NCBI RefSeq assembly: GCF_003003075.1
Contig: NZ_PVTX01000001.1
Coordinates: 558,001 to 622,000, forward strand
Source: Isoptericola halotolerans
GTDB lineage: Bacteria > Actinomycetota > Actinomycetes > Actinomycetales > Cellulomonadaceae
Direction: 5' to 3'
Length of the DNA stretch: 64,000 nucleotides
In this document: positions 52,167 through 54,107 of the stretch, one piece after another
Layout of the letters: each line of letters starts with the position of its first letter
Position numbering within the stretch: the stretch's first letter is position 1
Notes under the pieces: generated by a model
The model's input: the letters and a program-made list of their open reading frames with translations, nothing else
Databases searched by the model: none
What the model was told of the DNA's origin: nothing
Made by a program: the position numbers and the translations under genes

Positions 52167-52421
52167 ATGAGCCAGCAGATCAGCCAGCGCGAACTGCGCA
52201 ACGACAGCGGTCGGATCATGCGCGCACTCGACGAGGGCAAGTCGTTCGTCGTGGCCAGTCATGGTCGCGCTGTGGGTGAGCTGCGGCCGCTGCGCAGGCA
52301 GCGGTTCATCCCGGCACAGGCGGCGGTCGAGATGTTCCGCCACGCGCCCGCACTCGACCGTGAAGCGGTGCTCGCTGACCTCGACGCTCACGTCGACCAG
52401 GGAATCGAGCCGCGTGCCTGA
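52167..52421 (+). CDS. Phd/YefM-family antitoxin
   Basis: An 84-residue antitoxin with the Phd-fold N-terminus (QISQRELRNDSGRIMRALDEGKSFVVASHGRAVGELRPL) that binds DNA, and a C-terminal helix (LDREAVLADLDAHVDQ) that would wrap the toxin. It overlaps the PIN toxin by 8 nt. Leaderless-type start. Confidence 0.93.
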   Translation: MSQQISQRELRNDSGRIMRALDEGKSFVVASHGRAVGELRPLRRQRFIPAQAAVEMFRHAPALDREAVLADLDAHVDQGIEPRA

Positions 52422-52818
52422 CGGCGTGGAGCGAGGGCTGCTGGACACGTCCGTCGTCCTCGACCTCGAGACGATTCCCGTGCACACGCTGCCCGGCGAG
52501 CTGGCGATCTGCGCCGTCACGCTCGCCGAGCTGGCTGCGGCCCCGGCGGCGACGACGGACCCGGCCGAACGGGCGCGACGGCAGGATCGCCTCCAACGCG
52601 CCGAGGCAGCCTTCGAGCCGATCCCCTTCGAGCTGGAGGCCGCGCGCGCCTACGGGCAGATCTACGCGGCCGTCGTCGCACGGGGTCGCACGCCCCGACG
52701 CCGGCTCGCCGACCTCTTCATCGCCTCCGTGGCAGTTGCCGAAGGGCTGCCGGTCATCACTCGCAACCCCGACGACTTCGCCGGACTCGACGACCTCGTC
52801 CAGGTCGTCACGGTCTGA
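52414..52818 (+). CDS. PIN-domain toxin (VapC-like)
   Basis: A 134-residue PIN-domain RNase. Acidic active-site residues are visible in GLLDTSVVLDL, VTLAELAAA and RLADLFIASVAV, with ITRNPDDFAGL near the end. It would cleave specific RNAs when freed from the antitoxin. GTG start overlapping the antitoxin. Length and order match Phd-VapC type II modules. Confidence 0.93.
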   Translation: MPDGVERGLLDTSVVLDLETIPVHTLPGELAICAVTLAELAAAPAATTDPAERARRQDRLQRAEAAFEPIPFELEAARAYGQIYAAVVARGRTPRRRLADLFIASVAVAEGLPVITRNPDDFAGLDDLVQVVTV

Positions 52819-52840
52819 ACCGGTCCGCTAGCCTGGCCGC

Positions 52841-52885
52841 ATGACGAGGCGTACCGACTGGTGGTGGCTGCACCTGCAGCCGTGA
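52841..52885 (+). CDS. Trp leader peptide controlling trpS
   Basis: A 14-residue frame, MTRRTDWWWLHLQP, with three consecutive Trp codons (52859-52867). TAGCCT ends 6 nt before the ATG, so it is leaderless and placed at the mRNA 5' end. It lies 112 nt before trpS, with hairpins between. This is the signature of a ribosome-mediated tryptophan attenuator: stalling at the Trp codons when charged tRNA-Trp is scarce changes folding downstream. Confidence 0.88.
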   Translation: MTRRTDWWWLHLQP

Positions 52886-52904
52886 CCTGACGCGCCCCGA
52901 GCCC

Positions 52905-52990
52905 ACGAGTCCCGAGCTGCCCGCCGCAGCCCGGGACTCGTCGCGTTCGTGCCGACGTCGGGCCTCGGTGGGCGGCACCCACCGAAGGAG
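52905..52990 (+). promoter_or_regulatory. Attenuator hairpins of trpS
   Basis: Hairpin 1: 52905-52914 pairs with 52932-52941 (10 bp), with an inner GCTG/CAGC. Hairpin 2: TCGGTGGG (52965-52972) pairs with CCCACCGA (52978-52985) and ends at the trpS ribosome site AAGGAG (52985-52990). GCCCAC (52901-52906) can instead pair with GTGGGC (52968-52973), giving an alternative fold that breaks both. This fits control by transcription or translation attenuation. Confidence 0.7.
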
Positions 52991-52997
52991 CCGACCG

Positions 52998-54107
52998 ATG
53001 ACCAGTACGACCGCACCTGTGCCCGAGGCCGACGGCGAGACCGCCTCCGTCCGCGCCGCCCGCGCCCGCAGCGCCGAGATCGAGCAGCGCATCGCCCGCG
53101 ACCCGAGCATGTTCCGCGTCCTCACCGGGGACCGCCCGACGGGCGCGCTGCACCTGGGCCACTACCTCGGCACCGTCGCCAACCGGGTGCGCCTGCAGGA
53201 CGCCGGCGTCGACGTGATCGTCGTCGTCGCCGACTACCAGGTCATCACCGACCGCGACGAGACGGGCGACCTGCCCGCCAACGTCCGCGAGGTGGTGCTC
53301 GACTACCTCGCGGCGGGCATCGACCCGCGCCGCACCACCGTGTTCGCGCACTCCGCCGTGGCGGCCCTGCACCAGCTCATGCTGCCGTTCCTGTCGCTGG
53401 TGACGGTCGCCGAGCTGGAGCGCAACCCCACCGTGAAGGCCGAGTCCGTCGACGCCGCCACCCGGCAGGGCCGGAGCATGTCGGGGCTCCTGCTCACGTA
53501 CCCGGTCCACCAGGCCGCCGACATCCTCGCGGTGCACGGCAACCTCGTGCCCGTGGGCACCGACCAGCTGCCCCACCTGGAGACGTCCCGCACGGTCGCC
53601 CGGCGCTTCAACCAGCGCTACACCGCCGCGCAGCCGTACTTCGCCGAGCCGGAGGCGCTGCTCGCCGACATGCCGACGGTCCTCGGGAACGACGGCGCGA
53701 AGATGTCGACGTCGCGCGGCAACGCGCTCGAGCTGCGGGCGGACGAGGACGAGACGGCCGCGTACCTGCGGCGAGCGCGGACCGACTCCCACCGGCACAT
53801 CACGTTCGAGCCGGGGTCCCGCCCCGAGGTGGCCAGCCTGCTGCGCCTCGGCGCCCACTTCGCGGGGACGACGCCGGAGGCCCTCGCGGACACGATCGGC
53901 GCGGACGGCGCCGGGCGGCTCAAGGAGGTCGTCACCGAGGCGGTGGTCGAGGGGCTCCGCCCGATCCGTGCCCGACGGCGGGACCTCGCCGCGGACGGTC
54001 GAGCCGTCGTCGGCGAGGTCCTCGCCCGGGGAGCCGCGCGGGCGACCGTGCTCGCCGAGGGCACGCTGGCCGACGTCCGCGAGCTCATGGGCACGGTGTA
54101 CTCGTGA
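52998..54107 (+). CDS. trpS: Tryptophanyl-tRNA synthetase
   Basis: A 369-residue class I synthetase. The HIGH-type motif is TGALHLGHYLG and the KMSKS-type motif is AKMSTSRGNAL; VGTDQLPHLE also fits. It charges tRNA-Trp. ATG at 52998 is fixed by AAGGAG 7 nt upstream; the GTG at 52968 lies in the attenuator stem. The Trp leader peptide upstream implies that its level rises when charged tRNA-Trp falls. Many actinobacteria carry two trpS genes, and the regulated one is often the inducible or drug-resistant copy, so this may be such a copy (inference). Confidence 0.95.
   Translation: MTSTTAPVPEADGETASVRAARARSAEIEQRIARDPSMFRVLTGDRPTGALHLGHYLGTVANRVRLQDAGVDVIVVVADYQVITDRDETGDLPANVREVVLDYLAAGIDPRRTTVFAHSAVAALHQLMLPFLSLVTVAELERNPTVKAESVDAATRQGRSMSGLLLTYPVHQAADILAVHGNLVPVGTDQLPHLETSRTVARRFNQRYTAAQPYFAEPEALLADMPTVLGNDGAKMSTSRGNALELRADEDETAAYLRRARTDSHRHITFEPGSRPEVASLLRLGAHFAGTTPEALADTIGADGAGRLKEVVTEAVVEGLRPIRARRRDLAADGRAVVGEVLARGAARATVLAEGTLADVRELMGTVYS

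Follow-up and report, generated by a model that had tools for sequence, protein, structure and literature searches.

A tryptophan-codon leader with exchangeable hairpin arms, and a predicted helix from hairpin loop to Shine-Dalgarno region, upstream of a second trpS gene in Isoptericola halotolerans

A 64,000-nt stretch of the Isoptericola halotolerans genome (the window) was analysed, in which a trpS gene is preceded by a short frame with Trp codons and by two hairpins. The features of this region are as follows, in coordinates of the window.

52829–52834, + strand: TAGCCT, a −10-like box 6 nt 5′ of the leader ATG
52841–52885, + strand: leader peptide MTRRTDWWWLHLQP, 14 codons, from ATG at 52841 to TGA at 52885, where the RNA is expected to begin
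52860–52871, + strand: arm A (segment 1), inside the Trp and Leu codons; partner B
52876–52887, + strand: arm B (segment 2), codons Q-P-stop onward; partner A or C; a near copy of D
52905–52920, + strand: arm C (segment 3), 5′ arm of hairpin 1
52921–52925, + strand: loop of hairpin 1 (CCGCC); partner E
52926–52941, + strand: arm D (segment 4), 3′ arm of hairpin 1, followed by no clear U-tract
52965–52985, + strand: hairpin 2 (8 bp), 52965–52972 with 52978–52985, adjoining the Shine-Dalgarno sequence (SD)
52967–52976, + strand: segment E (GGTGGGCGGC), predicted to pair with the loop and apex of hairpin 1 (52916–52925) or to fold into hairpin 2
52986–52990, + strand: AGGAG, the SD of trpS, directly 3′ of hairpin 2
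52998–54107, + strand: trpS, tryptophanyl-tRNA synthetase (TrpRS), 369 aa, start ATG at 52998; TIGR00233, 216 bits, over the cut-off

The leader contains three consecutive Trp codons at 52859–52867. The two strands of the window hold 100 ATG frames of 7–21 aa, nested starts included; WW occurs in three of them and WWW solely in MTRRTDWWWLHLQP. An initial annotation of this DNA had described a leaderless 14-residue WWW frame 5′ of trpS, and that frame is indeed present at 52841–52885. Each of the 35 family sequences (defined below) has a TANNNT box 5′ of its leader start, at a distance of 6 nt in 20 loci and 7 nt in 15, against a background of 0.2% of random positions; a box at so fixed a spacing supports a leaderless start. 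A scan of 52500–53300 for the sigma-70 consensus found no site.

Upstream of trpS genes, a WW frame was found within 450 nt in 65 of 110 loci, a count in which some genomes appear twice, the frame at L021 looks unrelated, and L109 and L112 were not checkable by motif. The usual forms of the leader in Promicromonosporaceae and kin are MTRRxDWW(W/R)LxxQP and MxTxxWWWLPxQP, and leaders with WW(W/R)LxxQP are conserved in the relatives' loci. From the 65 leader loci, 35 were picked by hand as window-like and make up the family set, L086 and L089 being dropped as copies of L004 and L005. The folding and swap tests used 34 of these sequences (without L112), and alignment A1 used 30 (without L012, L029, L099, L100 and L112); for L004, L012 and L014 the sequence was trimmed at an ATC and not at a start codon. 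Alignment of the region upstream of trpS, suggested earlier as a check, showed conservation of the peptide, of hairpin 1 and of the exchange arms in Promicromonosporaceae and kin, which supports the earlier claim that a Trp-codon leader controls the synthetase gene. At one locus of the same genus (L112 in G001), the leader and hairpin 1 are kept and the trpS matches just residues 247–368; this gene looks broken or partly deleted.

The folding energy of the region was below that of all 200 dinucleotide shuffles (z −4.46). The 10-bp hairpin of the initial annotation corresponds to hairpin 1, at 52905–52941, which consists of 10 bp, an A.C mismatch, a further 5 bp and a 5-nt loop. The annotation contained neither the covarying loop:E helix described below nor the 2:3 arm, in which the leader end at 52876–52886 pairs with 52909–52920. 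Arm D is closely matched by this leader end, GCAGCCGTGAC, which can therefore take the place of D on C. Across the 30 sequences of A1, A:B was paired in 97.0% of 330 cells, the nearly invariant B:C in 97.9% of 285 cells, and C:D in 86.3% of 315 cells, the last figure being lowered by a bulge that MAFFT misplaced. Slid versions of these three helices dropped to 17–66% paired in the same alignment; none of the three had a fraction of paired cells above that of shuffles. Covariation of C:D was not found on A1. In the group swap test with one sequence per group, C:D passed (median p 0.000, maximum 0.004), and B:C, which is too invariant for testing and gains no covariation support, gave a median p of 0.21. 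Judged by conservation, the arms stand in the classical 1-2-3-4 order (1:2, 2:3 and 3:4, mutually exclusive), with the stop codon within arm B.

The idea of switchable hairpins survives as this classical exchange of A:B, B:C and C:D, which is conserved, and not as the alternative pairing that the annotation had proposed to exclude hairpin 2. The two segments of that pairing, 52901–52906 and 52968–52973 (GCCCAC/GTGGGC), are complementary in the window, yet 65.0% of just 103 cells were paired, with mostly gaps elsewhere. Conservation as high was obtained in 52 of 500 shuffles of A1, and the swap test for this region gave 701/5000 (with one sequence per group, median p 0.04 and maximum 0.24).

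No terminator-like site was found in a scan of 52500–53300. The 3:4 hairpin has no clear U-tract in the window lineage, where on average 3.3 of the 10 nt that follow D are T (n = 30 of 34), the T stretch beginning within the arm in some rows. The Promicromonospora rows L006 and L013 have TTTT at this position by eye.

The second hairpin at the SD is present in the window, with 8 bp, and abuts AGGAG as had been annotated, but a stem of this kind, of at least 6 bp and ending at most 4 nt from the SD, occurs in 8 of 34 family sequences. An anti-SD 4-mer was found before the SD in 25 of 34 sequences versus 24% when shuffled; the window's own pre-SD stretch has none. Covariation between E and the SD was not found (median p 0.23). 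Folding with a stalled versus a terminated ribosome moved the opening of the SD up by more than 0.1 in 2 of 34 rows and down by more than 0.1 in 4 of 34, and when B:C was forced instead of C:D, none of the 31 sequences folded (of 34) showed an opening raised by more than 0.1. Equilibrium folding with and without a ribosome over the Trp codons, a check that the initial annotation had called for, thus gives no consistent opening of the SD. In the equilibrium model B:C is much weaker than C:D, which would demand a kinetic switch.

Pairing between arm C and segment E was conserved above shuffles. C:E was paired in 90.2% of 295 cells of A1 versus 84.0% in shuffled alignments (0/500 as high), and when slid it fell to 35–58%. 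Its covariation score was 0.233 versus 0.131 shuffled (0/500), with both sides changed in 14 cells versus 3.5 (0/500). On the two measures least prone to distortion by kinship, C:E did not exceed shuffles: 3 versus 2.2 pairs had changes on both sides (190/500), and further pair types numbered 12 versus 10.7 (115/500). In a swap test between species, in which the C of L098 was misplaced, the own combination of C-apex and E had −22.6 kcal/mol versus −18.9 kcal/mol for permuted ones (0/5000). Repeated with one sequence from each of 14 groups and with the C of L098 corrected, the test gave p ≤ 0.002, although the rows of the swap and covariation tests share ancestry and the p values are therefore optimistic. 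When eight upstream segments were tested against E over the 14 groups, the sole covarying one was the loop of hairpin 1, 52921–52925 with 52967–52971 (median p 0.000, maximum 0.002); the other seven had median p values of 0.32–0.88. Only the loop, and not the apex stem, of hairpin 1 covaries with E.

Four further sequences were found later with an RNA model, and in these the own loop paired with E at −15.1 (L163), −14.6 (L164), −7.7 (L167) and −14.4 kcal/mol (L168). The number of foreign loops, out of 34, that paired with E as well as the own loop was 14, 0, 11 and 2, respectively. The own loop thus beats 34 foreign loops in L164 and 32 in L168, which makes two of the four distinctive. When the duplex of the whole hairpin with the pre-SD stretch was compared with shuffled pre-SD stretches, the test was positive (p < 0.05) for Promicromonosporaceae and kin in 20 of 33 cases, for Actinomadura in 3 of 3, for Streptomyces A in 7 of 14 and for Streptomyces B in 1 of 12. 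As judged from these alignments, the conserved feature is a predicted arm exchange plus a long-range helix between the loop and E just before the SD. Among the literature matches listed, most subscription papers being out of reach, no paper describes a pairing of a hairpin loop with the pre-SD region at trpS.

The genome has two TrpRS genes, that of the window and one on contig C4, whose products are 36% identical. The initial annotation did not see that the window trpS is a second copy; it is probably the auxiliary one. A TrpRS of some kind was found in all 58 genomes of the relatives, this genome included. The window type is patchy even inside the genus, and two genomes without it are incomplete. 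A WW leader precedes the window-type trpS in 30 of 36 genomes with at least two TrpRS versus 2 of 18 with one (Fisher p 3.9e-7, the genomes being treated as independent despite shared ancestry). This table was counted by hand and excludes genomes without a full window-type gene as well as G001, which has a fragment; L022 and L102, single-Trp leaders by eye, were entered as without leader, and the search for TrpRS copies covered loci other than L029. Consequently, 16 of the 18 genomes in which the window type is the sole TrpRS found are without a WW leader. These counts tie the leader to the duplicated state of TrpRS. One genome (G593) carries two window-type trpS genes, L162 and L163, each with its own leader and hairpin. 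In the genome studied here, trpE (L113, on contig C12) apparently lies close behind another gene, by eye, and a scan of 700 nt of this locus for a Trp leader found no frame with two Trp codons.

The solved structures closest to the window TrpRS are TrpRS II, PDB 1yi8 and 2a4m, at 210 and 209 bits, the next having 169. Both are presumably from Deinococcus radiodurans, and the likeness to its TrpRS II concerns the enzyme only. In the trees Deinococcus TrpRS II is placed only tentatively, its branch being very long.

We also looked at homologues in Streptomyces and Actinomadura. A window-type TrpRS was found at E < 1e-100 in 24 of 121 genomes of the genus Streptomyces, with a WW leader at 19 of those 24 loci. 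The Streptomyces/Actinomadura set of 31 leader loci was drawn from this 24-genome search, the relatives' loci and L161, and includes some repeats (L119 of L041, and L161 of L124). All 31 have a recognisable hairpin of the kind GGGCCGTTCG..GGACGGCCC, followed by a T-rich tail with a mean of 5.3 T in the next 10 nt (n = 31), L032 and L083 being without a tail.

One Streptomyces group comprises 12 loci with MTSV or MNSV leaders, and all 12 carry an exact complement of arm D, GGGCCGTCC, at a distance of 27–31 nt on the 5′ side of the SD. With linkers of 55–99 nt in this group, the chance of such a placement of the complement is 0.002, the count of the exact 9-mer having been made post hoc, after the listing had been viewed. 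The duplex-energy test was positive in just 1 of the 12. By eye, the TCC after GGGCCGTCC overlaps a possible pairing with the SD. This arrangement would allow a chain of A:B, B:C, C:D, D:E and E:SD, through which a stalled ribosome would both block termination and free the SD.

A tree of 28 rows places a 100/100 branch between the window type and five Streptomyces TrpRS, and the leaders of four of these five end in QWWAA or QWWPA; the tree is without 8 of 15 fetched copies in which the motif was missed, among them the other TrpRS of this genome. At L147, L149, L153 and L157, WW leaders (MTTRAHTTQWWAA and similar) stand before a different Streptomyces TrpRS family. Trp leaders therefore precede two deeply separate families of TrpRS.

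The distribution of the upstream region was also examined with RNA model R1, using stricter filters for both the class and the family searches. R1 matched in 3 of 394 class genomes, and in 12 of 41 family genomes at 14 places. Ten R1 places were viewed; nine lie upstream of trpS (L116 by eye), and the weakest (34.6 bits) lies upstream of a short ThrRS. By coordinates, the matches in G008, G019, G020 and G023 are just upstream of trpS, and the remaining match is the window. The short ThrRS (424 aa in G597) was found at E < 1e-100 in 4 of 42 family genomes (L171, L172, L173 and L174), each of which has another, longer ThrRS, ∼41% identical. All four loci have, by eye, a leader with a run of Thr codons (MHLSARTTTPDPSGAR and similar) as well as a GGCCCCGGAGC..GCTCCGGGGCC hairpin and CGGCTCC before the SD. 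In this by-eye comparison, the layout upstream of the short ThrRS is much like the trpS design.

Attenuation of trpS through Trp codons is already known in Streptomyces, and the leader of trpRS1 is reported to contain Trp codons. According to the citation of their work in PMC4787780, Vecchione and Sello (2010) described ribosome-mediated transcriptional attenuation of the auxiliary, antibiotic-resistant trpRS1 of Streptomyces coelicolor; as far as that citation goes, the likeness to the window is ribosome-mediated attenuation of an auxiliary TrpRS gene. The available text of PMC9437257 states that TrpRS1 of S. coelicolor is indolmycin-resistant. A Trp attenuator before trpS, as in the window, is also given for S. 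lividans trpL2-trpS, where trpL2 is leaderless and there are two hairpins and no uridine-rich stretch (PMC8079986), and, as a predicted candidate, for S. avermitilis trpS2 (PMC1262725); the available portions of these two papers describe no pairing of an attenuator hairpin with the pre-SD region at trpS. The window lineage differs from S. coelicolor trpRS1 in that it is without a clear U-tract and has a covarying pre-SD element. Our guess is that the Streptomyces family with QWWAA leaders is of the trpRS1 type, because its leaders resemble the trpL2 peptide of S. lividans; this clade, named from leader peptides alone, is set apart from the window TrpRS by the long 100/100 branch. T-boxes sense tRNA directly and are not known to use a leader peptide. 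Those of actinobacterial ileS genes, for which SD-sequestering and anti-sequestor hairpins are predicted in the available text of PMC1262725, nevertheless share with our proposal below the control of a synthetase gene via access to the SD. No Rfam family reached its gathering score anywhere in the window, and only chance-level miRNA matches (E 0.44 and 0.85) were obtained.

Upstream of trpS stand the leader, the conserved arms of the mutually exclusive pairings A:B, B:C and C:D, and a hairpin loop whose pairing with E is specific and covaries. We lean, by a little, towards reading them as a ribosome-mediated attenuator placed before a second, probably auxiliary, trpS, with an output that reaches translation initiation. 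Ribosome-mediated attenuation is well supported by the anatomy. Access to the SD is the preferred, if unproven, output, because the loop would be free for E only when hairpin 1 is prevented, and E lies beside the SD. A leaderless mRNA would begin with the AUG of the 14-codon peptide with its three Trp codons. With charged tRNA-Trp plentiful, the ribosome would reach the stop codon, hairpin 1 (C:D) would form, and segment E would stay in local structure beside the SD, leaving trpS off. With charged tRNA-Trp short, the ribosome would stall on the Trp codons and cover A, and B would pair with C; given the footprint of a ribosome, one halted at the first or second of the Trp codons would occupy A but not B. 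B:C would block hairpin 1 and open its former loop to E, and loop:E would then pull E off the SD and let trpS be translated. Premature termination at hairpin 1 could add an extra effect. We infer the stall, the order of events and the exposure of the SD by loop:E from the conserved parts. The C:E and loop:E covariation points to an alternative pairing that may capture the sequestering strand in the window, and of the two outputs offered by the initial annotation, transcription termination or concealment of the ribosome site, we favour an effect on translation in this lineage since a clear U-tract is missing and the pre-SD element covaries.

Three other explanations were weighed. Arms A–D in the classical 1:2, 2:3, 3:4 order, the T-rich tails of the Streptomyces/Actinomadura homologues (mean 5.3 T in 10 nt, n = 31) and the auxiliary trpRS of Vecchione and Sello, as cited in PMC4787780, would all suit transcription attenuation alone, in which hairpin 1 would terminate with no U-tract or through Rho, B:C would serve as antiterminator and loop:E would be of secondary importance. 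We consider this rather unlikely, given that 52500–53300 holds no terminator-like site, that a mean of only 3.3 T follows D in 10 nt (n = 30 of 34), and that the covariation of the loop with E, 40 nt downstream beside the SD, would be left unexplained. Still less probable, in our judgement, is a pseudoknot in which loop:E coexists with an intact hairpin 1 and blocks the ribosome site of trpS; stalling would dissolve it via B:C, the sensor would be the same, and loop:E would act with the opposite sign. Loops of 4–7 nt (by eye) leave little room for full pairing, and the anti-SD 4-mer that 25 of 34 sequences carry at or near E fits an antisequestor better; for the pseudoknot speak the covariation of only the loop, not the apex stem, with E, and the position of E directly before the SD. 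As to whether the Trp-rich frame and the hairpins arose by chance and have no regulatory role, equilibrium folding, which gives no switch, would agree with it, but conservation of the leader, the arms, the −10 spacing and loop:E, together with a fold z of −4.46, makes this extremely improbable.

The attenuator acting through the SD, which we prefer, may belong to a wider class. We put forward, tentatively and as a real possibility, a chained attenuator in Actinobacteria, in which a pre-SD segment would capture part of the attenuator hairpin (the loop in Promicromonosporaceae, the 3′ arm in the Streptomyces group), one stalled ribosome would control both termination and translation, and the device would accompany second copies of synthetases for different amino acids, namely Trp and, in four relatives, Thr. 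If true, the covarying link between the hairpin and the SD region would make the Trp leader a two-output switch, and would explain how attenuation can work in a lineage that lacks terminators with a clear U-tract.

Directly upstream of the leader, window positions 52167–52818 hold a Phd/YefM-like antitoxin frame (22.7 bits, under the Pfam cut-off) and a PIN-domain frame (42.6 bits), which together have the usual look of a putative VapBC-type pair.
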